From assembly GCA_033816765.1 (NCBI GenBank), contig CM066299.1, forward strand, positions 248,001-312,000: a stretch of DNA of 64,000 nucleotides. Reading direction: 5' to 3'. Below the pieces are notes generated by a model. That model worked only from the letters and a program-made list of their open reading frames with translations, searched no databases and had not been told where the DNA came from. This document shows, piece by piece, positions 14,307 to 56,374 of the stretch. The DNA is from Nothopassalora personata. Its lineage: Eukaryota > Ascomycota > Dothideomycetes > Mycosphaerellales > Mycosphaerellaceae. How positions within the stretch are numbered: position 1 is the stretch's first letter; each line of letters begins with the position of its first letter. Both the position numbers and the translations under genes were made by a program.

Positions 14307-14464
14307 TGTAAGGGGCGAGCCCTTGCATCTTGGCACGGGCTGAGCCCGTGCGGACCTGACTCCGTTTTCTTTGTTCCGGGCTTCGCTCGGTTTTCTCCTT
14401 CTTCTGTATCGAACTTATTGCATACCACACAGAACCTCAGTGTACACGTCGTTCACCCGTGACA
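14307..14464 (+). repeat. 5' LTR of the intact chromovirus
   Basis: 158 bp, TG...CA ends, identical by eye to 20863-21020. It contains a 19-nt near-perfect hairpin at 14333-14351 (GCACGGGCT / AGCCCGTGC). It also contains the 10-mer ATCGAACTTA at 14408-14417, which is complementary to the PBS. Confidence 0.95.
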
Positions 14465-14465
14465 T

Positions 14466-14475
14466 TAAGTTCGAT
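14466..14475 (+). other. primer-binding site, self-priming type
   Basis: TAAGTTCGAT lies 1 nt inside the LTR and is the exact reverse complement of ATCGAACTTA at 14408-14417 in the LTR. No TGG (the complement of a tRNA CCA end) follows the LTR. In Tf1-type elements the 5' end of the mRNA folds back to prime reverse transcription. By analogy the transcript start (R) would lie at about 14408. Confidence 0.6.
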
Positions 14476-14522
14476 CCATTCGAATCAACCAGGCACCCGC
14501 CATTAAAGAGACGGAATACGTG

Positions 14523-17500
14523 ATGGCGTCGTCGGGTAGCGAGAACCCCGGGGTTGGTGCCTCGAATGAAAATTTTCAGCTTATGCTCGAGCAATTGTAC
14601 CAGCGACAGGAAGAGATGCAGGCCGAACTGATTGCAACGCGCGCCGCCTTGAAAGAGTCGGAAGACGCTCGACGTCAGTCAACCCCTGCAGTCTCACTAC
14701 CAGTTCCGGACGACGCGTCTACTGGTGACCTAATGAGACAGTTGCTGCAGACGCTGAATGCCGCCGCGAACGCGCCGCGCAGCGGCGGAGAACCGTCGGG
14801 TCCCAGAGGCTGGAACCCGCCCTCATGGGATGGCAAAGCCGAAACATTCAGGGACTACTTCCTAAGGTTGAAAAGTTCCTTCAGGGTGCGTTCCGCACTG
14901 AAACCGACGCTCTCCAATGAATTCTACTGGGACGCGATCAACGACACGTTGCTAGCGAGGGAGCGCACGAGGATGCGGCACTTCTGGGACAAGGGAGACG
15001 GTGAACTTGGGAAGGACCCCGTTGCTTTCTTTGCGCAACTCGAAAAGGTCTTTGGCGATAGCAACGAACGCGCCAAGGCTCTAGAACAACTCACCAAGAT
15101 TAGACACGTGAACGGACAACCGTGGCACGATCACCAGATGAAATTCGACGGACTCCTGTTGACCGCCGGCGGAGAAGACTGGAGCAATGACGCGAAGATC
15201 GGCTACCTCCGCAACACCTTCTCGAATCCCGCCAGAATGTATACGGCAGCCATGCCGAAAAAGGAGGATTACTACGAGTTCGCAGAGGAGGTTAAGCGGA
15301 TCATGACCAACCTCGAGGACACAGACCAGTTTAGAATAGCCCACAAGAAGTGGAAGGACAACAACAAGGACTCCAGTGCGACCACCACGGTTACCACTCG
15401 TTCTTTTGCGGGACCTACCGTTACCCGGGTGGACCATGATGGTGACACCATCATGGCACCAACCCGAACGAACGGAGGCCGCTCTAGAAGTCGTGGAGAC
15501 CGGAAGGAGGACAAGGGGAAGCAGAGAGCGAAATGGGTCGACACCGCTGAGAGAGATCGAAGGCGCCAAGAACAGCTCTGTTTCCGTTGCGGAGCGAGCG
15601 GGCATCGAGTGAAGGAATGTCCGTACGCCGCAGCAGTCAACCCCACCAAGATCAACGCAGCCTCAGTTGCGCCGATCCTGGAAGACGACGGGTTTGGGAA
15701 AAGACTAGCTCCTGGGCGAAAGCCAGCACCAGGAGACAAAGAAGCACTGGTAAAGGGGTGGAACGCTGCCAAGAGTTCTATGAACGGGAACCTTGTATAT
15801 ACCGACGTACTCCTGAACGAAAGTTACGGCACGTTTGCCCTTATCGATGAAGGATGCATGTGTTATGCTGTAATTAACGGAGACCTAGCGAAAGGACTCG
15901 GTCTCACGTATGTCAGCAACGAGAGCCGCAAGGCTACAGGGTTCACCAAAGCGATGCGAAACTCGATTGAAGGAGTAGTTGCTTTCCACATGGAAATCGC
16001 CGGCATCCACGAGGTCGTGTACGCATACGTCGTGCCCGACTTGGACTTCCCGATGATTCTGGGGAACCCTTGGAAAGCGCACAATCAAATCCGAACTGCG
16101 CCAGAAAAGCACCGGTACTACCACGGTTTGGCAAAGAAATGGGTGCCCGAAGGACGCAACCATAAAGAACGCGAGGCGGGCGAACGTTTTGCTACGATCG
16201 CCGCGGCAACCGTGGAGGACATCAAGAAAGCCCTGAGCAAGAAGGAACCGCCCACGAGGGAGGAGCTCAAAATGAAGCTGCCTCCGGAACTTTGGGACAT
16301 GATCCCACTCTTTTCCACGCGGGAAGCCGACAAGCTCGCGCCCCATCGTGGGGAACTTGACCACAGGATCGAGATCCGGACGAAACCAGACGGATCGCAG
16401 GAGCCACTGCCCTGGGGACCGTTGTATAGCATGTCGAAAGACGAGCTGCTGGTGCTACGCAAGTCGCTAACCGAGCTGCATCGCAAGGGATACATCCGTC
16501 CCTCCACCTCAGAAGCGGCGGCCCCCGTCCTGTTTGTGAAGAAGCCCGGAGGAGGACTACGCTTTTGCTGCGATTATAGGGCGCTGAACGCGATTACGAA
16601 GCAAGATCGCTACCCGCTGCCTTTGATCCCGGAGACCATCCGAAATCTAACGGGAGCCAGATGGATGACGAAGGTGGACGTAGTTGCCGCGTTCCACCAT
16701 CTCCGGATGGCAAGAGGCGAGGAGTACAAGACCGCGTTTAGAACGAGATTTGGCCTGTGGGAGTGGTTGGTGTGTCCGTTTGGTTTGTCCGGGGCGCCGG
16801 CAACTTTCCAACGGTATATTAACAGTTTGCTGCGGGAACACCTGGACGACTTCGCCTCTGCGTACGCTGATGACGTAGTGATCTACTCGGATGGGTCGAA
16901 GGAGGACCACTTCAAGAAGGTTCGCATCGTTCTCCATAAGCTTTGGGACGGAGGCCTGTTCTTAGATCCAGGTAAATGCGAGTTCGCACAGAAGAAGATC
17001 AAGTACCTAGGGTTCATCGTCCACGCCGACGGAAAGGGGGTGGGACCAGACCCGGAAAAGGTGGATGCCGTACGGGACTGGAAGACGCCCGTCACTCAGA
17101 AAGAAGTGCGTCGTTTCCTCGGGTTCGCGAATTACTACAGGATGTTCATCCCCAACTACTCGAAGTTGGCCGAACCCTTGACGTCGCTGACGGGAAAGAA
17201 AACGCCGTTCTCCTGGGGGAAACGTCAGGAGGACGCCTTTCAGGCCCTGAAGAAGAAGTACTGTGAAGCTCCTGTGCTGGCCCATTGGAACCCGGAGCTT
17301 CCCACCTTTTTGGAGACGGACTGCAGTGGATTTGCCCTGGGTGGCGCTCTCCTGCAAGAAAAGGACGGGGTAGTGAAGCCGGTAGGGTTCTACTCAAAGA
17401 AACTGAATAAGGCTGAGATTAACTACGACATCCATGACAAAGAGATGCTCGCAGTAGTCTCCTGCCTCAAAGAGTGGGCCCCCGAGCTGAAAACGTGTGG

Positions 17501-19502
17501 TCCCTTTACAATTTGGACGGACCACAAGAACCTTGAGTACTTTATGACAAAGAGGCAGTTGTCTGAGAGGCAGATCAGGTGGGTGGAGCACATCGCGTTG
17601 TTTCAGTTTACCCTGGTATACAGGCCGGGCGCCGAGGCAATTGTGCCGGATGCATTGTCACGGAGGGAGCAGGATACGCTCGGCCAGGACGACAAATTGT
17701 CGCGTTTTCGCAGGGTTTTGCGGCCGGATGCCATACGCAATTGGCCGGCTCCAGGGGGGGGAGGCGAGGTGGTAGCAGATGCACCTTCATCCGCTACGAT
17801 GGTTTCATCGGTCCAGATTATGGCCACCCAATTCGGAGTCGACTCCACCGAGAAAACGTCGGACTCACCGGGCGCATCATCGGGCCCCTTCACAGATCCA
17901 GAATTGAACGAGATCTGGAGGAAGACCGCCGATGAAGACAGCACGTTTCAGGCAGTACTCCACGCAGTAAGAACCGGGGCGCGTTCACTCCCGAGCGAAG
18001 TGAAGCTCAAGGTACAAGCCGGTGACTGCAGCATCGACGACAACGGACACCTGCGGCACCGCGGAAGAATCTGGGTGCCGGGAGCCCCAGCAACGACGGA
18101 AGCCGACTACAAAGAGGCGGGCGCGGAGATATTGCAGAACGATGTCCTGCGGACGAAGCTCATCCAGTCCGTTCATGATTCACCGGTCTACGGCCATCCA
18201 GGCAGGGACTCCACAGCGTCTATCTTGAGACGTAACTTTTACTGGCCTCTACAGTCAAGGCACGTGAGACAGTTCTTGAGGAACTGCGATCACTGTGGGA
18301 GAAATAAGGTATGGAGGGAGCAAAAGCATGGACTCCTTCAGCCTTTACCGGTACCCGATCGTTTCTTCCAGGAGATCTCTATGGATTTCATGACGGACAT
18401 GCCGGAGTCGCAGGGAAACACTTGCTTGTGGGTAATCAAGGACAGACTGAGCAAGACCGTCGTCTTGGAAGCGATGTCCACCATGAAAGCGGAGGACTGC
18501 GCCGAGAGATTCCTGGACTGCTGGGTGAGATACTACGGGATTCCTAAGGCCATCACGAGCGATAGAGGCACGAACTGGACAAGCACATTCTGGAAGACAT
18601 TCTGTCGTTTAACCGGCGTGAAGCAGAGACTTAGCTCCGCCTACCACCCACAAACGGACGGAGGGCCCGAGAGGTTGAACCAAGAAGTGCAGGCGTACCT
18701 TCGGAATTATGTCAACCACGAGCAGTCCGATTGGAAAAAGTGGCTCTCCACCGCTCAGCTGGCGCTGAACGGACGGTACCAAGCGGGCCTAGGCATGAGC
18801 CCCTTCTTTGCCGTCCACGGTTACGAAGCGCCATTCCCCGTCCAGTTGCAGCCGGACTCAACGACTTCGTCGCTGGATGCCGCCAAACGGGCAACGCTCT
18901 TTGTGGAAAGGATGCAGCAGATCACGGACCTGTGCCAAGCGAGCATGGCGGACTCCGCCCAGGAGCAAGAGGAGAGCGCCAACAAAGATCGGAAGCCAGC
19001 GCCGATTTATCGGGTCGGTGACAAGGTGTGGCTGGATCTAAGGAACTACACTACGACCCGGCCGAAGAAGAGTATCGACCATAAGCACGCAAAGTACACG
19101 GTGGCGGAGGTCATCTCACCGCTGTCCATCCGATTGTCAGGGATCCCCGATGGAATCCACCCGGTCTTTCACCCAGACTTGTTGCGACCTGCAAGCCAAG
19201 ACCCGTTGCCTGGACAGGAGATCGACGACAAACAGCCGGACCCCATCCTCATTGAATCTCATGAGGAATGGCATGTAGAGGAGATTCTCTGCGCCAGAAC
19301 CAAGGCGAAAGGGAGGGGCAAAGCACGCGAAGTCCTAGTGAAATGGACTGGATACCACAAGCCTACGTGGGAACCATTGGAGTATCTAGCGGACACAGCT
19401 GCAGCAGACGACTTTGAGAAAAAGCACGGCAACCCGATGACGCACGATGGACCAAGGCAAGCATGGGAAGTCAAGAAGAAGGGCAGGGCGACAGGTAAGT
19501 GA
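14523..19502 (+). CDS. Gag-Pol polyprotein of chromovirus (gag, protease, RT, RNase H, integrase, chromodomain)
   Basis: One uninterrupted 1659-aa frame from the ATG at 14523; the codon before it is GTG. Residues 1-340 are Gag with a coiled N-terminus and a retrotransposon-gag core. A CCHC zinc knuckle (CFRCGASGHRVKEC) is at 353-366. The protease has ALIDEG at 440-444, with DEG where DSG/DTG is usual, and MILG downstream. The RT has YADD at 781-784. RNase H begins around Asp933 (ETDCSG), with HDKEML and WTDHKNL following. Integrase has the HHCC finger (ending CDHCGRNK) and a DD35E triad at Asp1288, Asp1347 and Glu1383. A chromodomain (WHVEEIL...VLVKWTGY...WEPLEYL) covers about 1582-1635 and probably guides insertion to histone-marked chromatin. 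No frameshift or stop is present, so the element may be active. Confidence 0.95.
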   Translation: MASSGSENPGVGASNENFQLMLEQLYQRQEEMQAELIATRAALKESEDARRQSTPAVSLPVPDDASTGDLMRQLLQTLNAAANAPRSGGEPSGPRGWNPPSWDGKAETFRDYFLRLKSSFRVRSALKPTLSNEFYWDAINDTLLARERTRMRHFWDKGDGELGKDPVAFFAQLEKVFGDSNERAKALEQLTKIRHVNGQPWHDHQMKFDGLLLTAGGEDWSNDAKIGYLRNTFSNPARMYTAAMPKKEDYYEFAEEVKRIMTNLEDTDQFRIAHKKWKDNNKDSSATTTVTTRSFAGPTVTRVDHDGDTIMAPTRTNGGRSRSRGDRKEDKGKQRAKWVDTAERDRRRQEQLCFRCGASGHRVKECPYAAAVNPTKINAASVAPILEDDGFGKRLAPGRKPAPGDKEALVKGWNAAKSSMNGNLVYTDVLLNESYGTFALIDEGCMCYAVINGDLAKGLGLTYVSNESRKATGFTKAMRNSIEGVVAFHMEIAGIHEVVYAYVVPDLDFPMILGNPWKAHNQIRTAPEKHRYYHGLAKKWVPEGRNHKEREAGERFATIAAATVEDIKKALSKKEPPTREELKMKLPPELWDMIPLFSTREADKLAPHRGELDHRIEIRTKPDGSQEPLPWGPLYSMSKDELLVLRKSLTELHRKGYIRPSTSEAAAPVLFVKKPGGGLRFCCDYRALNAITKQDRYPLPLIPETIRNLTGARWMTKVDVVAAFHHLRMARGEEYKTAFRTRFGLWEWLVCPFGLSGAPATFQRYINSLLREHLDDFASAYADDVVIYSDGSKEDHFKKVRIVLHKLWDGGLFLDPGKCEFAQKKIKYLGFIVHADGKGVGPDPEKVDAVRDWKTPVTQKEVRRFLGFANYYRMFIPNYSKLAEPLTSLTGKKTPFSWGKRQEDAFQALKKKYCEAPVLAHWNPELPTFLETDCSGFALGGALLQEKDGVVKPVGFYSKKLNKAEINYDIHDKEMLAVVSCLKEWAPELKTCGPFTIWTDHKNLEYFMTKRQLSERQIRWVEHIALFQFTLVYRPGAEAIVPDALSRREQDTLGQDDKLSRFRRVLRPDAIRNWPAPGGGGEVVADAPSSATMVSSVQIMATQFGVDSTEKTSDSPGASSGPFTDPELNEIWRKTADEDSTFQAVLHAVRTGARSLPSEVKLKVQAGDCSIDDNGHLRHRGRIWVPGAPATTEADYKEAGAEILQNDVLRTKLIQSVHDSPVYGHPGRDSTASILRRNFYWPLQSRHVRQFLRNCDHCGRNKVWREQKHGLLQPLPVPDRFFQEISMDFMTDMPESQGNTCLWVIKDRLSKTVVLEAMSTMKAEDCAERFLDCWVRYYGIPKAITSDRGTNWTSTFWKTFCRLTGVKQRLSSAYHPQTDGGPERLNQEVQAYLRNYVNHEQSDWKKWLSTAQLALNGRYQAGLGMSPFFAVHGYEAPFPVQLQPDSTTSSLDAAKRATLFVERMQQITDLCQASMADSAQEQEESANKDRKPAPIYRVGDKVWLDLRNYTTTRPKKSIDHKHAKYTVAEVISPLSIRLSGIPDGIHPVFHPDLLRPASQDPLPGQEIDDKQPDPILIESHEEWHVEEILCARTKAKGRGKAREVLVKWTGYHKPTWEPLEYLADTAAADDFEKKHGNPMTHDGPRQAWEVKKKGRATGK

Positions 19503-19725
19503 CGGATTGCGGGTCAGTTGACATGAGCACAGGCGTTTGGGAGCAGGAGTCAGATTGAGAGCACGTGAGAAAAGGAAAAAGTTTTAAAGAATTTCATTCA
19601 TTCATGCCGCCAAAAGGCAGCGGGGCCCGACCAAAAAGAAGCGGAGGCCGGCCCACCCCATACGGGGATGGCAAAAGCATTGTGATGGCCCGACCGCGGC
19701 CCGCGCGAAAACCACCGGAGACCAC

Positions 19726-20349
19726 TCAAGACATGTCGCGGCGGGTGCCAAGGCGGAGGGCAGGAGGGACGGGGCCGCTGGAAAATGATCGGTCAGCGAC
19801 GTCTTTCAATCGGAGTGCAACACTTACGAGCCAGCTTGCGCGTTGATGGCTCCCTCCATGGAGCCAGTGACCTCAGCAGCCACAGGACTGAGAGACGGTT
19901 AGCGATGGTTTTCAATCGGAGACCGGTGGAAATTACCCGGACAGCAGACCATCGGACTCGAGCTTGGAGAGCGGGCGCCAAGCCTTGATGACCTTCTTGA
20001 GATTGTCGAGTTTGGTGCTTTTCAGGCGTTAGCCGACGGAAAACGATCGCAGGCCGGAGACTTACGCCTTGGAAGCGTTGCCGGCACGGGTCCAGGCCGC
20101 GTACGCCTTGTGGCAGAGTGCTGAGTGTGGGGGGTTAGCGGAGTCCGGTCGAAAGGGGTCGGAGAGCGACTCACAGCGGGCGGCAGCGCTTCTGAAGGCG
20201 GCGGCACTCGTCGCAGCTGCGGACTTGATTGGCGGCCTGCGGATGTTTGTGAGCGGAGTCCGGCTGGAAAACGTCGGACTCAGGCGTCTTACGGCAGGGC
20301 CCACGCAATCGCGGCCAGAGTTGGCGCACTCCAGGCAGTGGTAGAGCAT
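19726..20349 (-). CDS. antisense accessory gene of the chromovirus, Zn2Cys6-like cysteine cluster
   Basis: Lies between gag-pol and the 3' LTR on the opposite strand. Coding exons are 20349-20293, 20236-20175, 20120-20066, 20017-19937, 19887-19828 and 19777-19726 (stop TGA). Introns of 56, 54, 48, 49 and 50 bp have GTRAG or GTAAT donors, mostly CTAAC or CTGAC branch points, and AG acceptors. A 55-bp intron (20409-20355) lies in the 5' UTR. Exons 1-2 read MLYHCLECANSGRDC, then CDECRRLQKRC: CX2CX6C-X11-CX2CX6C, the spacing of a fungal Zn2Cys6 cluster. Exons 3-6 join in one frame (LCHKAYAAWTRAG, TKLDNLKKVIKAW, PVAAEVTGSMEGA, GPVPPALRLGTRRDMS). The six exons total 367 nt, so the exon 2-3 join is off by one with these sites; a different junction or a 1-nt mutation is needed. 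About 121 aa. A DNA-binding or regulatory role is inference. Confidence 0.7.
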
Positions 20350-20354
20350 GTTTT

Positions 20355-20409
20355 CTGCTGGAAACCAGTTAAAAAGCATCGGAGGCCGGCTCAAAAGAAT
20401 CGGACTTAC
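20355..20409 (-). other. 5'-UTR intron of the antisense gene
   Basis: Donor GTAAGTCC at 20409 and acceptor TTTCCAGCAG ending at 20355, 55 bp, just upstream of the ATG at 20349. It shares the TCCGAT...CTTTT...CCGG words found in the coding introns of this gene. Confidence 0.55.
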
Positions 20410-20625
20410 TTGATGGTATTGATTGAAGATGTGGTGTTTGGAGGCTGTTGTGTTGGTGGTGCTGGAATCCGGTTAGTTTCTGTCGGAGCGCGGCGAGAAG
20501 GAATCGGATCGAGGGCGAAGGGGATCGTAGAGAGGGGCGGAGGTGATAGGGCTAGTGGAGGAAGAGGAGGGAGGGTGCTGTCAAGGGGTGTGTTCACATA
20601 CATTCGCTTAATGGTTGCCGAGCAA

Positions 20626-20671
20626 AAAAAAAAAAAAGAAAAAAAAGAGGAAGCTATCCGGTAGATATATT
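20626..20671 (-). promoter_or_regulatory. possible promoter of the antisense gene
   Basis: On the minus strand an AATATATC TATA-like word (20671-20664) is followed by a long pyrimidine tract (20650-20626) of the kind common in fungal promoters. It sits about 310 bp upstream of the antisense ATG. The assignment is inferred from position. Confidence 0.3.
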
Positions 20672-20840
20672 CTGGAGTCCTATTGTTCACATGTGACAAT
20701 AGCCATTGTCACATGGGTAACAACACGAAACCTCACACTCACCTAGGCAACAATACCACAACACAGCGACGGCGGGACCCGACAATGAAGGCACGGCCTT
20801 CGACGGCGACAACAAGCAGGCGGAGGAGACGCTGCAGGCG

Positions 20841-20859
20841 GCGGAGGGGAGAGGGGGGG
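20841..20859 (+). other. polypurine tract of the chromovirus
   Basis: GCGGAGGGGAGAGGGGGGG ends 3 nt before the 3' LTR. This is the expected plus-strand primer for reverse transcription. Confidence 0.75.
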
Positions 20860-20862
20860 TAA

Positions 20863-21020
20863 TGTAAGGGGCGAGCCCTTGCATCTTGGCACGGGCTGAG
20901 CCCGTGCGGACCTGACTCCGTTTTCTTTGTTCCGGGCTTCGCTCGGTTTTCTCCTTCTTCTGTATCGAACTTATTGCATACCACACAGAACCTCAGTGTA
21001 CACGTCGTTCACCCGTGACA
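20863..21020 (+). repeat. 3' LTR of the intact chromovirus
   Basis: 158 bp and identical by eye to the 5' LTR. It is followed by the target duplication GATAC (21021-21025). Confidence 0.95.
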
Positions 21021-21025
21021 GATAC

Positions 21026-22170
21026 TAAGGGTATATATACCGGTAACTATACCGATATGTCTACTAATATATCCTAGCGTACTTTACTAAGATCCTTACG
21101 AACTATAAGGCAGCTAAGAAAGCCGATCCTACGCTCTCTACGAAGGACAAGAAGCGTGAGGATATAGAGGACAACGAGTATATCTACCGGTTAATAAACC
21201 GGTAGAGCTACCGGTATACTAACCGTTTAATAGTAATAAGGGTAAGGAGGAGTCTACTACTAAGCCCGCCCCTAAGAAGACCTACCCTAAGAAGCCCGCC
21301 CTAAAGAAACCGTATATACTTCCGACCGGTAGCCCTACCGGTATACTAACCGGTATAGAAAATCTACCTCTACCGGCCGTTAGAGGAAGTAGAAGGTAGG
21401 CGGCGCATCTAAGAAGGCTACGAAAGAGAGTAAGTGTATCTAACCGGTAACTATACCGGTATACTAACCGGTATAGCTACCCCGATCTCTATACCGTCCG
21501 ATAGGTCTAATAAGGAGGAGAGTAAGGAGGATAGTACTAGCGCTAACCCCTACAATATCGTAGACGAGGCTACTACCGCTATACAAGTAGCATCTAAGGC
21601 CTAGGCGGGTAAACTTAACGAGTAGGTTAACTAGTAGGCCGACTAGTATAGGTACCGATATACTAAATAGTATATAGCTCGGACCTCTACCGTTTCCCCG
21701 ACTTCTAGAATAGTAAGAAGAACTACCGCCTCGTCTAGAAAATTATATAGGCTTAGGGCCTAGAGTATCCTTATAGTTTATATAAGTCTATTAGGCTAGA
21801 GCGTAAGTACTAGTACTCGTACTAGTACTCCTACCGGTATGTATAACGGTATACTAACCGGTTTATAGACTACAACTTAAACATCTACTACTATAACTTC
21901 GGTAAGGTCTTTAGGGTAAATATAGCTAGTAAGCTCTAGACCCTATATAAGAAGTACACTTAAGTAGAGCTTAAGGCTATATATAAGAAGGACAAGTAGT
22001 ACTATAACTAGTTACGATACCCGTTAAAGTACCGGTTAGGATACCGGTACTATGCTTTATATAAGATAGTAATTTAGGCTATCGAGGTCCCTAGTACCGG
22101 TATAGATACCGGTACTATACTTTGTATAAGATAGTGATTTAGGCTATCGAGGCCCCTAGTACTAGTATAG
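21026..22170. other. sequence X, segment 2 (RIP-degraded, unidentified)
   Basis: Continuation of segment 1. ACCGGTATACTAACCGGT-type words recur near 21190-21230, 21325-21355, 21440-21475, 21830-21870 and 22030-22110, separated by stretches that look like degraded coding DNA. At 22051-22084 and 22109-22142 a short stretch is tandemly duplicated (CCGGTACTAT..TTATATAAGATAGT). I do not recognise the protein. Confidence 0.5.
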
Positions 22171-22603
22171 TATTATGTCTCGTTCTAGGGCTAGTCTTAA
22201 AGGAGAGATAAGTTAAGTTACGTAGCGGTATTCTTTAGAGAGACTAGAGCGAGCTAAGCGAAGATAAATAATTAGAGTAAGAGTATATTCCAATTAGTAA
22301 GATAGTAACATAAGTTAAACGTATCGAAACTATAAGGGATTCTTAGCGTTCCTAAATATAAAGGAGATTTGTAGATCTCGGTAATTAGTCTAATTATTCT
22401 AAGTATAAGCAGTCTAATTAGTCTAAGCATAAGCAGTCTAATTGTCCTAAGTCTAAGCGCTTAGGTAGGATAAGTTACGTGCTCGTCTCGTTATTATAAT
22501 TCTAGGGTCTATAGGAATTATTCCGTAACACTATCCCCTTTTTAGCCTAGCTTCGTCCTAAAGCTCTATAAACTGTTATCATTTCTTATAGTAATAGTTA
22601 GCT

Positions 22604-23112
22604 ATGTCTTCTTCCTCCTATAAGCGCCGTTAACGACTTGCTCTAGATACTAAAACCTCTAGTATCGAAATAGCTCTATACACGAATTGTTAGAAGTCTC
22701 GATCCTTAGGCGCGGTAGTAAAGTATATCGTAGGTTCTCGGTCTAGGAAGTGTTCGGCCTATATTCGAAAAGGCTATAAGGATTGCGACGTGTATCTTTC
22801 TCGTCCGGAGTAGGAACGTCTTCGCGATTCGCGCGATAAGCTTAAGCTAGAGCTTAAGAGGATTAAGGAGGAGGAGGTGCGGCTAAAGATGCGTAAGATC
22901 CGTCTCCGGAAACAGCTACGCTTAGCTAAGCGTCGTACTAACGACGCCGTCGCTAAGGAGTTAGAGGAGCTCGAGGAGGAAGAGGCGCGTAAGGAGCTAG
23001 CGTCTCTTAAGTAGGCGTCGGGGGTAGAGGTGTCGCCTTCGCTTATTCTTTCTCGGATATCCTAGAGATGCCCGTAAACGACTAGGCGGCGCTTTCTAGA
23101 GCGGAGCCCTAG
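22604..23112 (+). pseudogene. antisense accessory gene of chromovirus A (Cys-cluster plus coiled coil), RIP-broken
   Basis: Opposite to gag-pol and adjacent to the 3' LTR. The frame opens with ATG at 22604 (MSSSSYKRR). It then shows a Cys-rich part with NC-stop-KSRS, SRKCSAYIRKGYKDC and a following LSRPE-stop-ERLRD. A long charged coiled coil follows (KLELKRIKEEEVRLKMRK, LEELEEEEARKELASL). The Tyr in CSAY is TAT, one RIP change from a Cys TGT, so the motif was probably CX2CX7C. In-frame stops include TAG and one TAA, and a 1-nt deletion relative to copy B lies near 23050. It is equivalent to 49534-50548 in element B. Confidence 0.65.
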
Positions 23113-23180
23113 GGTAAGTCCCTAGGGGTAGAACCTCGTTAGGGTATTTTATTCGTAAGTTGTCCCTATTTCTATTAATC

Positions 23181-23254
23181 GGCTAGGTAGCTTAGTAGTA
23201 GAGCGTAAGCTGTCTACACTCTTAAGATCGTAGGTTCGATTCCTACCCTAGTCG
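23181..23254 (+). tRNA. tRNA-like sequence inside chromovirus A, probably a RIPed tRNA pseudogene
   Basis: The sequence folds as a tRNA. The acceptor arms GGCTAGG and CCTAGTC pair (one G-U). The D stem is GCTT/GAGC, with an A-box-like TAGCTTAGTAGTAGAGC. The T arm is GTAGG-TTCGATT-CCTAC with a canonical B box (GGTTCGATTCC, 23233-23243). The anticodon region is abnormal: TAAG/CTTA encloses an enlarged loop, so the anticodon cannot be read safely. It lies between the antisense gene and the chromodomain end of pol and is absent at the matching place in element B. Confidence 0.55.
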
Positions 23255-23299
23255 CTCGTCGGCCGAGAGATCGATTGTCGTTAGTCGTATCGGCGGACC

Positions 23300-28990: not shown

Positions 28991-29566
28991 TTCCCTACTA
29001 GCTACTTAAGTAGCACTTATCCTAAGGGCGTTTAAAGTGTTATGTCTCGTTCTAGGGCTAGTCTTAAAGGAGAGATAAGTCAAGTTACGTAGCGGTATTC
29101 TTTAGAGAGGCTAGAGCGAGCTAAGCGAAGATAAATAATTAGAGTAAGAGTGTATTCCAATTAGTGAGATAGTAACATAAGTTGAACGTATTGAAACTAT
29201 AAGGGATTCTTAGCGTTCCTAAATATAAAGGAGATTTGTAGATCTCGGTAATTAGTCTAATTATTCTAAGCATAAGCAGTCTAATTAGTCTAAGCATAAG
29301 CAGTCTAATCACCCTAAGTCTAAGCGCTTAGACAGGATGAGTCACGTGCTCGTCTCGTTGTTATAATTCTAGGGTCTATAGGAATCATTCCGTAATATAT
29401 AGATACCGGTTTAGCGACTAGTAGAGGTTTAATATATAAATATATGTTCTAAAAATCCCTTACCGTAGTAATTAATACTATTAAGCTTCTATATACTATA
29501 ATTTAGCTATCTTAAAGATAAGTCGAACTTATAATTATATAGATTTAAGGATCCTTATATAGTAGC

Positions 29567-34958: not shown

Positions 34959-35622
34959 GTAGCTATAGTAATCTAATAGATATAATACTATTAAAGTTAC
35001 TTTAAATTAATTATACTACTCTCTTTTAAAATTCGTAGCTACTATACCTCTAGTACTATAATATATAATCTATAGTACTATACTACTATTTAGTATGTAT
35101 ATATTAGTAATTAAGGTATAGCTATTAAGGGATGTCGTAATGTATAGCACGCCTACGACCTACTAGTCGTAGATGAACTAATTCTTGCCTTTTGTTTAAG
35201 ACGCATTACGCGTCGCAAGGTGTACGTATGCGTGTCACGTGCGGCTTAGTAGCCGGTCGCGACCGCATGTTACATGTAAGGCTATATGTAAGGGTTAGCT
35301 ACTAGGCTGCCCCTTACAATTATCTCCCCTCCCGTACGAGCTATCCTTAGCTCGCTAGTTACTACGTAGAGGTTCCTACGTACTTCTAGAACTATAGTTG
35401 CTATACGGCCTACATGCCGGTTGCGTGCGTGTCGTTATGTAGGTGTAGGTAAGTAAGGCTTAGTTACTATACCGACGTAGCTAGTTAGGGGTATAAGACT
35501 CTAGCCTAACCTAGCCCTATTCTCCTAGCACGTTCCCTAGCGCACTACCCCCGTTATACTACTACTACGTACCCGTACCGCACCCGCACCGTAAGCGCCT
35601 CACTAGTATCATTATTATTATT

Positions 35623-36554: not shown

Positions 36555-36697
36555 GGCGCTCGCCTTACACGCTACTCGCGGGCTCCTCGCCTACTACTAC
36601 TCTACGTAGCCCCTAGTAGGCGCGCTACTCTTTAGCTTTTGTTTTTGTTTATAGTTAAGAAAAGTTTTATTTATGCTCTAGTACTCCTATACTAGTC

Positions 36698-41580: not shown

Positions 41581-41813
41581 AGCGTATATAGATTGTAACG
41601 AAGAGAAGAATTAGAACTGTTAAGGGATGTCGTAATGTATAGCACGCCTACGACCTACTAGTCGTAGATGAACTAATTCTTACCTTTTGTTTAAGACGCA
41701 TTACGCGTCGTAAGGTGTACGCATACGTGTCACGTGCGGCTTAGTAGCCGGTCGCGACCGCATGTTACATACAAGGCTACATGTAAGGGTTAGCTACTAG
41801 GCTGCCCCTTACA

Positions 41814-43627: not shown

Positions 43628-43860
43628 TGTAAGGGGTAGCCTAGTAGCTAACCCTTATATATAGCCTTACATATAACATGCGGTCGCGACCGGCTACTAA
43701 GCCGCACGTAACACGCATACGTACACCTTGCGACGCGTAATGCGTCTTAAACAAAAGGCAAGAATTAGTTCATCTACGACTAGTAGATCGTAGGCGTGCT
43801 ATACATTGCGACATCCCTTAACAGTTCTAATTCTTCCCTTCGTTACAATCTATACACGCT

Positions 43861-46548: not shown

Positions 46549-46706
46549 GACTAGCATAGGAGCATAGGAGCATAGGAGCACTAGAGTATAAATAAAACTT
46601 TTCTTAACTATAAATAAAACAAAAGCTAAAGAGTAGCGCGCCCACTAGAGGCTACGTAGAGTAGTAGTAGGCGAGGAGCCCGCGAGCAGCGTATGAGGCG
46701 AGCGCT

Positions 46707-47645
46707 TTAGTTGTCATCGTCGCGCAGTAACTTAGGTAGGAATGCCTAGTTAGCGGCGGTAGTGTTGATGTTCTACGCCTATAGGAACTAGGACTACGGT
46801 TAGTAGGGTACACGTATACGAGGAACATGCGACTCACGGCGCGGCCGAGTTCGAATAGCCTATTAAGGGCGCGGTTCTACTCCTACTAGAGCGCGAGGGC
46901 TACGGCGGAGGGGGCGGCGGCAGTAGTAGCGGCGGCGGGGGCACGCATACGGGTTTCCCCGGCACGCTTGTGCTTATAGGCATTGAACTGCCTAATAGCC
47001 TATAGAAAGGGTTAGCCGAAGTATAGGAGACGCACTAGAGCCCCCCCCCCGCGAGTAGTAGTCGACTCATAGGAGCGAAGTAGCGACTTACCTCCGTAAT
47101 GTCGTTACCTAGCTAGGCACATAGGCGGATCTACTCCACTAGCTCCTACTACTAGAGGTCTATAGGCGCCTAGCCTATTATGGCCGTAAGGAAGTCGCGC
47201 TAGGAGCGCGCGGCGCGTAGGCGGCTTACTAGCGAGGCGATAGCGTAGCTAGTGTTAGGCGCGCACTTGTGTCTATTGCGCCTATAGCGGCCGCACTTCT
47301 TTAGGAGCTCGCCGGTAGTAACACTATTACAGTTATCGGCCTCGTCTAGTAAGTGGTTAGTATACGAATCGTAGGCGGCGCGCGTAGAGACTTACTCTTA
47401 ACGAAGTATAGGAGGCACCGTATGTACATATTAATCCTCTACGAGAGTTTAGCGGCGGGCGAGGGCGTTAGTAGCTACGAGGGGGATGCTAGTCGCTTAC
47501 GACCACTAGGCGTTCTAGGTGCGTCGCGTACTAGAGCCGCCTAGCGGCGCTCGTCTTCTAAGGCGCTAGTAGTACTGTCGCTACTAATGCTACTAGAGGA
47601 GGCGGAGCGGCTAGAGAACGGAGGCGAGGAGTGAACGTTAGACAT
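46707..47645 (-). pseudogene. antisense accessory gene of chromovirus D2
   Basis: Mirror copy of the D1 antisense gene: ATG at 47645 (MSN start) and TAA at 46709-46707. The CX2CX6C motif (about 47301-47269) has Tyr (TAT) instead of the second Cys, a RIP change. The same intron positions are visible. Comparing D1 and D2 shows CA/TG retained at different sites in each copy, so they were mutated independently. Confidence 0.7.
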
Positions 47646-48147
47646 AATAATAATGATACTAGCGAGGCGCTTACGGTACGGGTGCGGTACGGGTACGTAG
47701 TAGTAGTGTAACGAAGGTGGTGCGCTAGGGAACGTACTAGGAGAAAAGGGCTAGGTTAGGCTAGAGTTTTATGCCCCTAACTAGCTACGTCGGTATAGTA
47801 ACTAAGCCTTACTTACCTACACCTATATAACGACACGCACGCAACCCGTATGTAGGCCGTATAGTAACTATAATTCTAGAAGTACGTAGGAACCTCTACG
47901 TAGCAACTAGCGAGCTAAGGATAGCTCGCACGGGAGGGGAGGTAATTGTAAGGGGCAGCCTAGTAGCTAACCCTTACATGTAGCCTTGTATGTAACATGC
48001 GGTCGCGACCGGCTACTAAGCCGCACGTAACACGCATGCGTACACCTTACGACGCGCAATACGTCTTAAACAAAAGGCAAGAATTAGTTCATCTACGACT
48101 AGTAGGTCGTGGTCGTGCTATACATTGCGACATCCCTTAATAATATA

Positions 48148-49056
48148 CTCTCCTTCCTAAGATCCCTATTTATACGATTAACGATATTCCTCGAGCGATC
48201 ATCGTCTTTAATACTATACACCTTAAAGGTAAAGTATTTATCGTAGTCTTTTCGATCTAGGTGTATACTTATAAGGATAGCCGGTAGGAGGTTCCTCCTT
48301 ATACTAGTTAAGTTACTCTTATTTATAGACTACTCGATAGTATTATCGTAGCTATTAATCTGCTTAGAGATGTAATATAGCATCCGGGTATAGGCCTCAT
48401 AAGTACCTACACGTATTATAGGGTAGGCTTTATAAGCTACCTATACTTAATAATCTAGTCTATAAGCTAGAAGAAGTTAGTAGCTACCGTTATATCGACC
48501 GGTATATATACTGTAAATAGCTCTAAGTATCTCTATATACGAAGCCTCGCTCCGTGCTATACGAATCTAAAGTATATAGCTACTAGGACTAGAAGCCGCA
48601 AATGCCTAGCTAACGACGCCCTCGATAGTTCTTCGAAGGTAGATCCGGTAAAAGACAACTTAATTCTAGAGATTCTTAACCTATCTACGTTAATTAGGGT
48701 CCTTTGAGTCGAGGTACATTCCGAAGCCTCTACCGGTTAGTCTACCGGTATGTTAACCGGTAAAGATAGGATATACTTTCTAATTGCCTAGGCCCTATAT
48801 CTATCGTATAGCCTTGGAAGCTAGCACCGTCTAGGTTATAGTGTCGCTAACGAACGACTCGACCTATAACCTCCTAAAGTAAAGAAAAATTCGTTTAAAC
48901 ATTACCTTATACGTCTCTATAGTCTTACTACCTATAAACGCCCGTCTAAGTGTACATACTATTAATTAGCTACCAGTTTATATACTAGTCGACGAACCGG
49001 TTCTTACATTTGCCTTACTCTTCTACTAGCGTTGTAAAGATAATCTCGTTTATATC
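48148..49056. other. sequence X, segment 5 (RIP-degraded, unidentified)
   Basis: RIPed DNA with degraded coding character and ACCGGTAT words near 48495, 48725-48765 and 49000. It is interrupted at 49056 by element B. Confidence 0.45.
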
Positions 49057-49533
49057 TGTTAGGTTTAGTATAACCTAATAATATTACAAGTTAAGAAGAC
49101 AAGCTTAATCGGGTTTGTTCTCGGGCCAATAGGAAGTTAAGGGAGAGTAATAAAGTAGTAGCTGTCTTGTCTTATAAAGACTAAGCAGTAGTAAGGTAGA
49201 GGTTAGGTTATAGTGTATTCTAAACAGTAATATTAAACAGTGAGTTAAACGCATCGAAACTATAAGGGATTCTTAGCGTTCCTAAATATAAAGGAGATTC
49301 GTAGATCTCGGTAATTAGTCTAATCATTCTAAGCATAAGTAGTCTAATCAGTCCGAGCATAAGCAATCTAAACGCCCTAAGTCTAAGCGCTTAGGTAGGA
49401 TGAGTCACGTGCTCGTCTCGTTATTATAATTCTAGGGTCTATAGGAATTATTCCGTAATACTATCCCCTTTTTAGCCTAGCTTCGTCCCGAAGCTTTATA
49501 AGCCGTTATTATTTCTTATAGTAATAGTTAACT

Positions 49534-50548
49534 ATGTCTTCTTCCTCCTATAAACGCCGTTAACGACTTGCTCTAGATACTGAAATTTCTAGTATTAAAA
49601 TAGCTCTATACACGAATTGTTAGAAGTCTCGATCCTCGGGCGTAGTAGTAAAGTGTATCGTAGGTTCTCGGTCTAGGAAGTGTTTAGCCTATATTCGAAA
49701 AGGCTATAAGGACTGCGACGTGCGTCTTTCTCGTCCGGAGTAGGAACGTCTTCGCGATTTGCGCGATAAGCTTAAGCTAGATGTTACGGTTCGGATGAAG
49801 GACGGTGTAGGACGTAGTATAGGGAGGAAGAATTAGAAGATAAGAACTAATCGCTAGAAAGAGGAAGGGACCCTACGTTCGGGTCACGTGCACGACCGCG
49901 CGCTTAGTGCATGGTCGAACACGACCGTAGAAGTAGCGTATGGACGTACACGACTACACGACTAGGCGACCGGTCGAGTGGATAGACGGACGCCTAACAC
50001 CGGATGGCATACGAGTCTCCTTTGTATTTAGGAACGCTAAGAACCCTTATGGTTTCGACGCGTTTAACTTATGTTACTATCTTACTAATTGGAATATAAC
50101 TCTTATTCCAATTATTCATCTTCGCTTAGCTTACTTTAGCCTCTCTAAAGAATACCGCTACGTGACTTGACTTATCTCTCCTTTAAGACTAGCCCTGGAA
50201 CGAGACATAACACTAGAGCTTAAGAGGATTAAAGAGGAGGAGGTACGGCTAAAGATGCGTAAGGTCTGTCTTCGGAAATAGCTACGCTTAGCTAAGCGTC
50301 GTACCGACGACGCCGTCGCTAAAGAGTTAGAGGAGCTCGAGGAGGAAGAGGCGCGTAAGGAGCTAGCGTCTCTTAAGTAGGCATCGGGGGTAGAGGTGTC
50401 GCCTTCGCTAGTTTCTTTCTCGGATATCCTAGAGATACCCGTAAACGACTAGGCGGCGCTTTCTAGGGCGGAGTCCTAGGGCGAGTCCTTTAACTGCTTT
50501 CTAGTAGATTAGTCTCTAGCGGAGGTTAATCTACTAGTACGTTTTTAG
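49534..50548 (+). pseudogene. antisense accessory gene of chromovirus B, split by a solo LTR
   Basis: ATG at 49534 (MSSSSYKRR). It has the same Cys-rich region as element A (KCLAYIRKGYKDC) and the same coiled coil. The C-terminus is in a better frame than A (FSDILEIPVND, then SFNCFLVD) up to TAG at 50546. The insertion at 49782-50212 falls between the Cys-cluster region and the coiled coil. Remaining stops are of the RIP type. Confidence 0.65.
49782..50212 (+). mobile_element. solo LTR inserted in the antisense gene of chromovirus B
   Basis: 431 bp, TGTTACGGTTCGG...GAGACATAACA, flanked by CTAGA (49777-49781 and 50213-50217). Element A is uninterrupted at the matching place. Its last ~110 bp match the reverse complement of the start of the element A LTR, so it belongs to the same wider family in opposite orientation. 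It is less RIPed than its host. Confidence 0.85.
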
Positions 50549-50559
50549 TACTCCTAGAT

Positions 50560-53500
50560 CCTTTACTAACAGTTCTATAGGTGTTCTTTTAGTTCCTAGG
50601 TATTTTCTAATTCGTCGTATCCTTTCTACTTAATAAGGTATCGCTAACCTCTTCTATCTAGGATTTTTTAGACTTCGAATTCGTTCTCTACTTCTAGCTT
50701 GAAATAGAAGCTCTCTTAGTAAGGTGTCTCGGTGTCCGCTAGTTCTAGCTTAGAGATATAGAAGACTAGGTGAATTTTTACATCTAGTAGTAGCCGTAGT
50801 TGGTAGTTAACTAGTCCTACGATTTTATCGATTAAAAATAGTCCGACCTTAACGTAATCTAGCTTTTCAGTCTATCTTCTTATTCTTAAGTTTTTTATAA
50901 GGAGATAGACCTTATCCCCCTCTTTTAGTAGAGGTGCTATTTTTCTCGTGTCTTGCCGTTATTAAGACAGTTTATATTATATATTATTAATCGCCTTATG
51001 CGCTTCTTCATACACTTCCTTAAGAGTATCCGTCGTTACGATCGCTCTTTCGGCTTATAGATAGGGTCTAGGTGTTCCGAATAGGTTAGGATCTTTACTA
51101 AAGTTCGTATAGAATAGTATCGTTAAAGTTGTCTCTAATTTGTAGTTATTTAGTGCAATCTATACTATTAGCAATAGTGAAACCTAGTTGTCTTATACGT
51201 AGTTAATATAGTGTCGTAGGTATTATTCTAGCGTTTAGTTCGTTCTTTTAGTTTGTCCGTCTATCTCCGGATAATATACTATTAATAGCTTATGTTTAAT
51301 TCCAATAGTTCCTATAAGCGTCTTCTAGTAGTTCGATATAAATAGTTTGTCTCTATCCGTTATAAACGCTTAAGGGAATCCGTAGTATCGGATAAGTCTA
51401 TCTAGTACGAGGTATCCGAGCTGCTCTACATTATATGTTTCTAATGTAGGAATAAAGTGTGCGTATTTCGTAAGTCTATTAACTATAACTAGTATTATGT
51501 CGTATAGTTATTTCGTAACTTAATCCTTTAACGGTAGGAGTTTCGTAATAAAGTCTATTATAACTTTATCCTATGGTTTTGTCGGTAGTGTTCTAAACTA
51601 TAGGTGACCGTATTTCGTATGTCTCGGAGCCTTGTTTCGTTAGTAGTATATATATTGTTTAATGTAGCGTAACACCTTAAGTCTTATCTATAGGAATAAG
51701 AAGCTACGCTATATTAGGTCTATTGTCTTTAAAGTTCTAGGGTGTCCGTAAGTTAGTCCGTCGTAATGTTGTCGTATATATTCTTCTTCTCGATTCTTTA
51801 GTACTTAGTACCTTCCTTATAATATAGGGAATTGTTCGTCCTTATCGCCTAATATCCGTACAATATTGTTAAATTCTCTTATGTTAGTACTAAGACTTCC
51901 GTCGGGGTTCGTCTTTAATACTTTGTGTTACACTAGTTCTTTTCCTTCTATGTAGTCGCTCCTTCGGCTTAGCGCGTCGGCGCGGCTGTTCTCTCGTCCT
52001 AGAGTATATTTAATTTTGAACTTATACTGTCCTAGCAGCTCCGACTAGCGGGCTTACCTTCGGGTAAGTTCTTTCGTCGTCGTGAAGTACGTAAGATTCT
52101 TATAGTTAGAAAGAATCGTTAACTTTGGTAGGCCCTCGACGTATACTCTCTAATATTGTATAGTAGTAACAATAGCTAGAAGCTCTTTATTATAGATGTC
52201 GTAGTTCTGTTCCGCTATAGTCACTTTCCGGGAGTAATAGGCTACTAGGTATCTCTACCTATCGTATGTCTATGTTAGACATGCGCCTATTGCTATATCG
52301 GACGTATCGGTCTCGATATAGACTTCCTTACTACTATCGTATAGTCGAAGGATAGGGGCTAAGGCGTATTGTTCCTTAATTTTCTTAAACGCTTTAATCT
52401 ATTCCTTTCCCTATTTCTAGGTAACGTCTTTTCTCGTAAGTATCGTTATTAGTACTGCTGTCTTTACGTAGTCCTTAATGAATTTTCGGTTATAGTTCGC
52501 TAGTCTAAGGAATAATTATACGTCCTTAACTGTCTTTAGTTCTAGCCATTCTCTAATTAACTATGTCTTCGTAGGGTCGATTGTTATCCCTATAGTGCTA
52601 ATAATAAAGCCTAAGAATTTAACTTCTTTCTTATGGAATTCGCATTTCTCGGGTACCGTCTTGAATCCTAATTGCGTGAGTCGTTTAAAGACGTCCTAGA
52701 CTTGTCTTATGTGTTCCTATAGGGATCCTTTCGTGTAGACTAGTATATCGTCTATGTAGGCGATAACACATACGTCGAGTAGGTCTCTAAGTGTCTCGTT
52801 AATAAGGTCCTAATAGGATACGGGTGCATTAGTTAATCCTATTAGCATAACTAAGAATTCGTAAAGTCCGTATCTTGTTCTAAAAGCGGTTTTCTATTCT
52901 TCTCCTTCCGCTATCCGTATAGCGTAGAAGGCATCTCGTAGGTTAATCTTCGTATACTAGTCTAATCCGGTTAATCTATCTTATGCTTCTTCGATGTTAG
53001 GTAGCGGGTATCGGTTCTTAATCGTGATCTCGTTTAACTTCCTATAGTCTTATACGAGTCGTAACTTCCCGTTTGCTTTTAGAACGAACATATATAGAGT
53101 TCCTATACTTAAGGTGGATTTTCTTATCTATCCTTTAGCTAGCTTCTCCTTTAGCTATTCTCGTAGGGTCTATAGCTCTTTCTTAGACATTTAATATAGG
53201 GGTCCCTATAGAGGCTCTTTCCCTAGCTAAATGTTTATCTTATGATTCTATAGTTAGTGCTTAGGTAAGGCATCCTTATCTCTTTCCTCTTTAAAGAGTC
53301 GCGACCACTTGCGATACTCCTTAGGAATACTTAACTCTAAGATATTAGTATCCTTCTATAGTACGTTACCTCTATTACTACTAGTAACTTCGTAACCTAG
53401 CGGCCTTACGCTAGTGTCTATCCCGGTCGAAGGTAGTTCTTCTATCCTTCTAGTCGGCGTAAGCTATATCTTGTTTAGCTATTTCCTTACCTTATCTACT

Positions 53501-55950
53501 AGTAAACGCTACTACTACGTAGGCTAAATGTCGATAACGCAATCGTATTCCCTAAATGTAAGTACTCCTATTCTCTAGTCGATTACTAGATTGTGCTTTC
53601 TTAACTAAGGCATACCTAGTACGATGTTATAACTAGCTATATTAGTAATATCTAAGATAATCTCCTCGTAGTACCGTTAGATAGCAAGTAGTAGCGGTAT
53701 CGTCTCGCGCTCTATACTAGGTAAGGATAATCCGTCTACTGCGATTAATTTATAACCCTCTTTCTTCTTATAGGTAGCGATCCTATGTCTTATAATAAAT
53801 AATTCGGAGGTAAAGTTCCCGCTTACTCCGGAATCTATTATAGTATCTATCTTATGCCCGTTAACGATAATCTTAGTTTAAAACACTATTATCGTTAGTA
53901 ATACTTAAGCCTTTTCTATGTCGTATAACTCCCTTCGGTCGCTTATTCCTAGGGAGTTAATCCTTTTTCCTATTCGTATATAGAACGTCGTACTTCGTGT
54001 CTCGAGGCTTCCGCTAAAACCTAGCGCGAGCCTTTCTATATCCGTACCTATATTTAGTAACGTTCCTAGATCTTCTACGTTTCTAAGTAGAGTACGCGTA
54101 CGTGTTGCACTATATTACGTAATTCATTCGATATAAATGTTCCTAACGGTATAAGGTATCCGGTTCCGGTTATTCGGCTCTCTATCGGTAGTCGTTCTAT
54201 AATAGCGGTTGCTAGATTCTCGGTTGTTTCTATAAGTAGGTATCCCTAAGCTATGCTTGGTAGGCCGTCGAGTGTCTTATCGTACTCGGTAGGGTATAGC
54301 ATTCGTCGTCCGCCTATCTTAGGTAGGAATTCTTTATGCCTTCTTTATAGGTAGACGATTATGTCGTATAGTTTCTTAGGTGCGTCTACCGTAAAGGTCA
54401 CTTATTTGTTATCGTCGTTAGTGTCGCTCTCTTCTCCTTCGGAGGAATCTTCTTCGCTCGATTCTTCCGGATCCTAATCTTCCTTAATAGTATCTAGCCC
54501 GGTAGTTTCTTAACTTTCTTCCTATGATTCTAGTAACTACGATCCGTTCTATCCTAGGTCTTGGTTTTCTTTATCGCTTCTATTATCGTTAAAGTAGAAT
54601 TCGTTAATGTCTACTTCTTAGAGCCTAGTATTCTACCGGTGTTCTACTCCTAGGGTTCCTCGCGGTTACTAAGGCTAATACCCTACTCCTATCTTCGCGG
54701 AGTAGTAAACCTAACACGGGTCTTAGTAACAGAATCGCTAATAAAGGCTTCTATAACTATTTCGAGATTCGGATTCGATCTCGTAGTCGACTCTTCGTAC
54801 TATTATATTAAACTGTCGTAGTTAGTTCTTCGTATTAAATGGAATAACTACTATTTGCTACCTATAGTATTCTCCTCGTCCTTCTAAGGGGTCTAGGAGA
54901 GGCGTCGTGCTTCTATTACTAGCTCTCTCTCCTACTCTCCGAGTATAGTCGGTATCTCCTCGAGATCTAACGCTACTCTTAGATTTACTAGTTCGGGGTT
55001 GTATTATATGAAACTGTTCGCGGCGCACTATATTCTTACCGCGGTAGTCCCTTACTAGGTAGCTAGGTTTGCTATATCTATAGCAAGTTCGTGTTTCTTT
55101 CGAACTCCGGGATACTCTATTCCCGTTACTATTTCTAATCTTACGACCTTTCTCGGTAACGTCGAGTTCTATTAGCTATAGTCCGTAGTACGGTTTGTCC
55201 CTAGGCTTACTATTGTAGTTGTCGTAGAAGCCTTTATTGCGGTTGTCGTAGCCTAGTGTATATCTAGCCTTTCCGGATATCTTAGAGTCGTATCGTCGTT
55301 CTATAGCTCTCTCGTAGAGCTTGTCGTTAAGATTAATCGTAACTCTAACGAGGTCGCCTAAGCTATCGATCTTCCGACCGTCCCTTATTAACTCGTCCTT
55401 AATATACTCCTTTAGTCCTCTTCGGTACATAACTTAAAGTGCTTCGTCGTCCTAATCGGTAAGTTGCGCGTATTCTTAGAATTTAGTAGCATATTCGGCC
55501 GTAGATGTCTTCTAGGTTAAATGCTAAATAATACAAACGGCAGTAGCAATCTTATTAGAGACACTAAAGACGCTCTTTATAGCATGCTTAAGATGGTTAT
55601 ATAACCTAAAGATTCCGTCGGTATTATCTTCTCCGTTACTGTCTAGGTATTTCCTAAGGAATAGTTTGACCTAATGCTATACTCGTCCTCTTAAAAAGGT
55701 AGTAGTAAAGATAGGCTTAAGGTTCTTAGGCATAGAGTTAAATAAGAAGTACATATCTATCTAAGAGACCTAAGTGTCGAACTTGTCTCGGTCGCTATAA
55801 TAGTATTCTAGCTTGCTAACCTTAAGGGTGTCGTTACCTATATAAGTAGCTAAGGCATTAATAGCATCGTTCGCGGTCTAAGGTCGTCGGGCTCTACTTG
55901 CTTTACTAGGGGCGGGTGTTCCCCGTTTACTCTGTCGGTCTCCTATTGTA
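50560..55950 (-). pseudogene. gag-pol remnant of chromovirus B
   Basis: Minus strand. Gag includes an open stretch at 55430-55176 (MYRRGLKEYIKDELIRDGRK). RT has AYIDDILV (52761-52738). The chromodomain is at about 50690-50590. RIP-type TAG stops occur throughout. Confidence 0.8.
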
Positions 55951-56374
55951 GAGGGCGTTTAAAGCTGTTAGGTTTAGTATAACCTAATAATATCATAAGT
56001 TAAGAAGATAAGCTTAATCGGGTTTGTTCTCGGGCCGATAGGAAGTTAAGGGAGAGTAATATAGTAGTAGCTATCTTGTCTTGTAAAGACTAAGCAGTAG
56101 TAAGGTAGAGGTTAGGTTATAGTGTATTCTAAATAGTAATATTAAACAGTAAGTTAAACGTATCGAAACCATAAGGGATTCTTAGCGTTCCTAAATACAA
56201 AGGAGATTCGTAGATCTTAGTAATTAGTCTAATCATTCTAAGCATAAGTAGTCTAATTAGTCCGAGCATAAGCAGTCTAATCGCCCTAAGTCTAAGCGCT
56301 TAGGTAGGATAAGTTACGTGCTCGTCTCGTTGTTATAACTCTAGGGTCCATAGGAATTATTCCGTAACAATATC

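Follow-up and report, generated by a model that had tools for sequence, protein, structure and literature searches.

Chromoviruses and antisense genes at the locus

The window, by which we mean the whole stretch of 64,000 nucleotides that was analysed (G000:C13:248001-312000), holds a nest of LTR elements flanked by GC-richer DNA (Table 1). The genome searched comprised 54.5 Mb in 40 contigs, and its content marks it as fungal: it shows mutation of the RIP type, holds Ty3/chromodomain elements and gives 112 matches to Zn_clus. E1 is a young element with LTRs of 158 bp; the chromodomain of its open frame scored 25.2 bits (cut-off 25.1) and the zinc knuckle 20.5 bits (cut-off 20.8). Elements A, B, D1 and D2 are GC-poorer and interrupted by stops, which are mostly TAG, as RIP gives. 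The first-pass annotation had claimed that an opposite-strand Cys gene lies between pol and the 3' LTR in all three chromovirus families of the window, and the gene was indeed located in E1, in D1/D2 and in A/B.

Table 1. Elements and genes located in the window (window positions).
Feature	Position	Strand	Details
E1, chromovirus	14307..21020	+	LTRs 14307-14464 and 20863-21020; GATAC target duplication
E1 gag-pol open frame, stop to stop	14469..19502	+	zinc knuckle, RT, RNase H, integrase, chromodomain
E1 antisense Cys/coil gene	19726..20354	-	model exons in the next row; upstream start unsure
E1 antisense model exons	20354-20293, 20236-20175, 20120-20066, 20017-19937, 19887-19828, 19777-19726	-	
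Element A, RIP-mutated	22166..29395	-	LTR matches 22166-22528 and 29033-29395
Antisense Cys/coil gene of element A	22604..23132	+	RIP stops; CSAYIRKGYKDC; 86% nucleotide match to intact F3 gene
tRNA-like gene behind A antisense gene	23181..23255	+	RF00005, 54.4 bits
Element D1, RIP-mutated	35117..41815	-	
Antisense gene of D1	35631..36349	+	CGRCRRNRHKC at 35964; 82% nucleotide match to intact L059 gene
Element D2, RIP-mutated and truncated	43628..48140	+	
Antisense gene of D2	46918..47645	-	CGRYRRNRHKC
Element B, RIP-mutated	49047..56375	-	LTR matches 49047-49466 and 55956-56375
Antisense gene of B	49534..50488	+	split by insert at about 49782-50212

On the minus strand of E1, the reading frame of CLECANSGRDC (20337) is not that of CDECRRLQKRC (20215), and removing a 56-nt GT..AG intron (20292-20237; signals GTAAG, CTCAC and CAG) joins the two Cys halves into CX2CX6CX11CX2CX6C. 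The full model has six introns, the five beyond the 56-nt one being predicted on the minus strand. The frame of exon 3 does not fit that of exon 4, and in an alignment of 16 further E1 copies the only exon 3/4 indel listed was the loss of 9 nt across the acceptor in L063, differences unique to the RIP-mutated L064 being left out of the listing. Given that so young an element has mismatched frames, E1 may do without the full gene, and its antisense protein may be shorter than the model. The exon layout and donor sites were recognisable in L071 and L072, the two sequences read of the RIP-mutated relatives L071-L077 (a further one, L070, was masked); L071 has Tyr codons at all three Cys positions of the first cluster. 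Among the genome copies of the E1 piece, 16 of 19 rows were full length without stops, two were partial and one had stops.

The six predicted E1 introns (window 19778-20409, minus strand) are 48-56 nt long, each contains TCCG one to three times, and five of the six have a CTNAC-like branch site. They resemble one another and are perhaps copies of one intron. Elsewhere in the genome, E1 copies with identical RT stand at G000:C1:5.717-5.773 Mb with a spacing of 10,775-10,779 nt, three per orientation, which suggests an array including the element.

The D antisense gene was intact in three unmutated copies read. The intact copy in L059 encodes 209 aa in three exons, with two antisense-strand GT..AG introns of 50 and 91 nt, and among the matches listed 24 of 150 genome copies were without stops. 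The sense genomic RNA is not spliced at introns of the opposite strand; they would thus survive retrotransposition, as reasoned from the known replication cycle. For the A gene, the first genome search found at least one stop in each of the 150 matches scored, and in a later count of the A/F3 gene 16 of 150 among the matches listed were without stops. Part of the insert in the B antisense gene (50010-50215) is an inverted match to the A LTR.

Intact families elsewhere in the genome

Intact elements were recovered by an RNase H scan of the genome, and one copy each of F1, F3, F4, F5, F6 and F7 was read. F3 is the intact form of A/B and has an intact A-type gene. The intact antisense proteins of F1, F3, F4 and F5 are 186, 179, 213 and 167 aa long, respectively, and their frames span the interval between the stop of pol and the PPT/LTR edge: the genes end no more than about 150 nt away from that stop, overlapping the end of pol by 115 nt in F1, and start near a conserved polypurine/LTR edge motif. 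The chromodomains of these four families scored 55.6-63.5 bits. Two further genes that were read alone (L109 and L110) had the same pattern, with RNase H matches on the other strand at a distance of about 2 kb.

In F6 and F7 the Cys motif was absent from both strands of the 3.2 kb read (3' LTRs not delimited), and their pol ends matched the chromodomain weakly, with 18.9 and 22.7 bits (cut-off 25.1). The gene is not universal, being carried by the other six of the eight groups sampled (F1, F3-F5, D and E1).

Evidence for a real gene

The six-Cys pattern was present in the four stretches with intronless genes and never appeared when each of eight stretches was Markov-shuffled 100 times; since the D and E1 genes are spliced, the pattern is invisible in their unspliced stretches. 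All six Cys are invariant in the eight proteins aligned, which are 22-62% identical to the first row and four of which are metagenomic homologs 40-52% identical to A. These four were the only homologs of A in the protein database searched. Homolog searches with the D and E1 proteins found none at E 0.1 (1396 and 12 candidates, respectively), and an A1 query found no match among viral contigs.

RIP does not make transversions. Relative to F3, 25 RIP-mutated copies of the A gene carry 12/3/25 distinct transversions at codon positions 1/2/3 (p 1.5e-4, a value to be taken as indicative because the copies share ancestry), and the A gene appears to bear traces of past purifying selection. The corresponding counts for D, 10/9/15, were not significant (p 0.13), and in the codon-position comparison for E1 only two of nine loci were aligned.

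The first-pass annotation had also proposed an ancestral accessory gene or repeated capture of one gene type. The former holds for F1, F3, F4 and F5, which leave-one-out profile comparisons joined at 92.8-98.6% probability; in Cys-keeping shuffles, made for F5 only, none of 60 reached the F5 score. Against the A profile, D and E1 reached probabilities of 6% and 35%, and Cys-keeping shuffles scored as well in 14 of 60 and 4 of 60 cases, so that homology of D and E1 to the A type beyond the Cys pattern is not supported; the intron counts differ as well (none in the A type, two in D and six in E1). A tree of eight antisense proteins had no supported branch, with F5 very divergent, and rejected neither pol-like pairings nor F1 with F4. 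Gene exchange between families is accordingly not supported by this phylogeny. In our view, these chromoviruses carry the antisense gene as a genuine accessory gene.

Protein architecture

These are small proteins with a six-Cys cluster and a long coiled coil, to which several families add an acidic/aromatic tail. The Zn(II)2Cys6 spacing, which we take to be CX2CX6CX5-12CX2CX6-8C, is found in F1, F4, F5 and E1 and not in F3/A, D and the four proteins P0001-P0004, in which the first loop is 11-13 residues long. Pfam Zn_clus (PF00172) matched four of the eight proteins scanned at 7.7-13.9 bits, below the cut-off of 21; no Pfam domain exceeded its cut-off in these eight, and PF04195 (TRP28) was absent from their matches. 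A profile of the A core compared with a profile of 20 host Zn_clus domains gave 83.9% probability, and 2 of 60 Cys-keeping column shuffles were as high. The cluster is Zn(II)2Cys6-like, a candidate for rather than an established member of the family.

The AF2 model of P0001 (mean pLDDT 81) has a short helix after each CX2C and a 78-residue helix at 67-144. No related structure was found by Foldseek or VIA, and a sequence search of the PDB returned weak matches only, many of them coiled coils (best E 0.021).

Joint divergence of the antisense gene and U3

The degree of conservation along the element was compared among F1, F3, F4 and F5. Nucleotide identity between families was 70-84% for pol (shuffles 61), 56-63% for the antisense CDS (shuffles 53-59), 42-63% for the U3 body (shuffles 42-60) and 66-92% for R-U5 (shuffles 54-59), the contrast between U3 and R-U5 being partly built in because their borders were set from blastn matches. 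At the protein level, the pol ends were 72-87% identical, whereas the antisense proteins were 25-40% identical. The antisense gene and the U3 body, near the shuffle level, cannot be aligned between families whose pol and R-U5 can. The antisense gene and U3 change together, forming a fast-changing cassette between a conserved pol and a conserved R-U5.

The blastn similarity between the pol ends of F1 and F3 (L084 and L085) reaches no further than the F1 antisense gene's stop codon; because it stops there, the pol tail of F1 that overlaps the antisense gene differs too, as if gene and overlapping tail had been exchanged together.

Direct repeats occupy 73%, 43% and 52% of the bases in the U3 bodies of F1, F3 and F4, respectively (shuffles average 1-2 bases). 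They are specific to each family, none were found in the R-U5 or pol pieces tested, and the A LTRs of the window contain three copies of a 24-nt unit. No direct repeats were found in the U3 of F5 or in the E1 LTR, and few (9%) in the LTR of the pol-less element L108 described below (211-aa type), which argues against the repeats being required.

Elements without pol retain the antisense gene

Searches with the F1 and F4 proteins revealed many more intact groups. In one of these, L108, two LTRs of about 320 bp enclose a gag frame of 347 aa (Retrotrans_gag 42.3 bits, zinc knuckle 26.3 bits) and the antisense gene, leaving no room for pol. L108 is the one pol-less carrier that was sequenced, the others being inferred from coordinates. 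Its Gag is matched at 97-100% identity in the best 150 of 1021 candidates. An opposite-strand antisense gene pairs with 86 of the 150 gag rows listed, at a spacing nearly fixed for each type; 102 antisense genes were listed, 16 of them without a listed gag, and 64 gag rows remained untyped. Among the listed gag elements the antisense genes fall under 13 length labels, or about ten types after near-equal ones are merged. Between types, the score, the span and the identity to F4 as query (29-40%) vary, the 211-aa type being the one for which the sequence was obtained.

The linkage of gene type and U3 was then assessed with a marker of 34 nt from the U3 of the 211-aa type, allowing at most three mismatches (100 of 109 sites listed; reversed control 0). 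Among the sites listed, two per element span were found in 27 of 30 elements of the 211/206-aa type and in 0 of 56 others; the nine unlisted sites could belong to either group, and with types as the unit the contrast is one type against about nine.

At G000:C12:1356395-1367415, six gag copies of the pol-less element follow one another at an exact spacing of 2,056 nt and are likely a tandem LTR-gag array. In the window, a solo LTR at 24338-24657, inside the RIP-mutated element A, is 97% identical to the LTR of L108.

A candidate regulator of its own U3

We propose that the antisense gene encodes a DNA-binding regulator that is co-inherited with its own U3, which it would activate or shield, and that is kept where pol is lost; we give this reading about an even chance of being correct. 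By its layout, the protein could be a minimal dimeric DNA-binding regulator. In integrated copies the 3' LTR would drive transcription of the gene, and its product would bind the U3 promoter repeats of its own element type, so as either to activate that U3 or to shield it from silencing. We infer transcription, metal binding, dimerisation, the DNA target and the direction of the effect. Gene and U3 would travel together as one cassette. Since pol can be borrowed from other elements and a matched regulator cannot, pol-less elements would keep the gene. Gene and U3 are also neighbours, so a single template switch could carry both without functional matching.

With regard to the direction of the effect, activation or protection from silencing is preferred and copy-control repression is the main rival. 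A repressor would bind the U3 of its own or of closely related elements and shut it down, serving copy control or the exclusion of rivals, and types would escape by changing gene and U3. This would account for the joint change of the two and for the many types side by side in one genome, and antisense HBZ of HTLV-1 shows that a protein encoded in antisense can play a part in an element's life cycle. Repression gives pol-less elements a less obvious reason to keep the gene, and several types have many near-identical intact copies; we therefore regard it as unlikely.

Somewhat less likely still is a passenger, that is, a captured host-type zinc-cluster gene that is drifting, its hypervariability reflecting relaxed constraint and its neighbouring U3 hitch-hiking. 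The low similarity between families, the divergence of F5 in the tree, the frame mismatch in E1 and the adjacency of gene and U3 are what such drift would produce. It is at odds with the intact genes of those unmutated copies that were read, one each for F1, F3, F4 and F5 and three for D, and with the retained Cys, the apparent purifying selection in A and the presence of the gene in a pol-less element. We would be surprised if the functional product were the antisense transcript rather than the protein (e.g., through double-stranded RNA or termination of the sense transcript), because a Cys pattern that is invariant across such divergent proteins, the third-position excess in A and the frame-compatible introns of D speak for a protein, even though the gene is convergent with pol and overlaps it in F1, F3/A has a tRNA-like gene between the two, and antisense transcripts are described as widespread in retroviruses.

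Returning to an activating or shielding regulator, we tentatively extend it, with somewhat less confidence than the regulator itself, to a swappable self-recognition module that would consist of the antisense cluster/coil protein and the U3 repeats that it reads. About ten or more distinct specificities would exist side by side in this one genome, and pol-less parasites would keep the module, which cannot be borrowed. If this is true, the module would be the retrotransposon counterpart of the co-evolution of VANC and its targets. The many natural pairings of gene and U3 on a near-constant gag in one genome make recognition of the own LTR directly testable. Such recognition would show how related elements avoid cross-regulation, and it would explain unannotated Cys/coiled-coil proteins as transposon regulators.

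Relation to known antisense genes and regulators

The first-pass annotation had known of no description of such an antisense gene, a statement overtaken by brtn, which has been reported as an antisense gene in Boty of Botrytis cinerea (Zhao 2011). The passages available of a 2020 review place the brtn ORF in antisense orientation between pol and the 3' LTR and mention it for Sclerotinia as well. Boty, like the elements studied here, is a chromodomain Ty3 element of an ascomycete with an antisense gene in this position, although these passages are silent on hypervariability, U3 linkage and pol-less carriers, and the comparison is one of descriptions, not of sequences. BRTN may be a member of the Cys/coil family.

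In the plant elements Retand, Grande and RIRE2, as far as the excerpts describe them, antisense genes likewise lie between pol and the 3' LTR and are suspected DNA-binding regulators, and some carriers of the Retand gene are non-autonomous. They differ in domain and lineage, Retand having a TRP28 domain and being a non-chromovirus, and the six-Cys cluster is absent from these partial descriptions. The fungal Zn(II)2Cys6 factors (PF00172) share the Cys spacing of F1, F4, F5 and E1 and a weak profile similarity, but the match stays below the cut-off, and the first loop is longer in A/F3, in D and in the metagenomic homologs. L108 resembles TR-GAG elements in being an LTR pair with gag and without pol, and differs from them in its extra antisense regulator-like gene.

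VANDAL elements are DNA transposons, and HBZ is a bZIP protein. The VANC proteins of VANDAL elements in Arabidopsis, with their fast-changing repeat targets, would by analogy be the closest in logic. They are described as sequence-specific regulators encoded by TEs, whose targets, often tandem repeats, vary considerably between related TEs; the protein is a different one, and anti-silencing, which is shown for VANC, is a guess for the antisense gene here. HBZ is like the present gene an antisense protein gene under the 3' LTR, but it has no Cys cluster and belongs to an animal retrovirus.

Searches of an open library on antisense and zinc ORFs brought up brtn and plant and retroviral cases and, among the entries listed, no Cys-cluster antisense family, U3 linkage or pol-less carriers, the brtn paper lying outside their reach, and the passages seen of a fungal LTR survey (PMC3248453) do not mention a Cys-cluster antisense family. 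Recent reviews and surveys continue to describe what antisense genes do in LTR retrotransposons as unknown. What is new here is the Cys/coil family, its hypervariability, its linkage to U3 and its retention without pol.

A tRNA-like gene behind the A-type antisense gene

The tRNA-like gene of element A has a counterpart in intact F3, directly behind the antisense gene (L079 35-109, RF00005, 52.5 bits). Given that the RIP stops are mostly TAG, it could be asked whether this gene has an amber-reading role or acts as a Pol III boundary. In the RIP-mutated A family, whose window copy is L009, ARAGORN located the gene at 17 of 25 loci, with an enlarged anticodon loop that was read as CTA (amber) every time.
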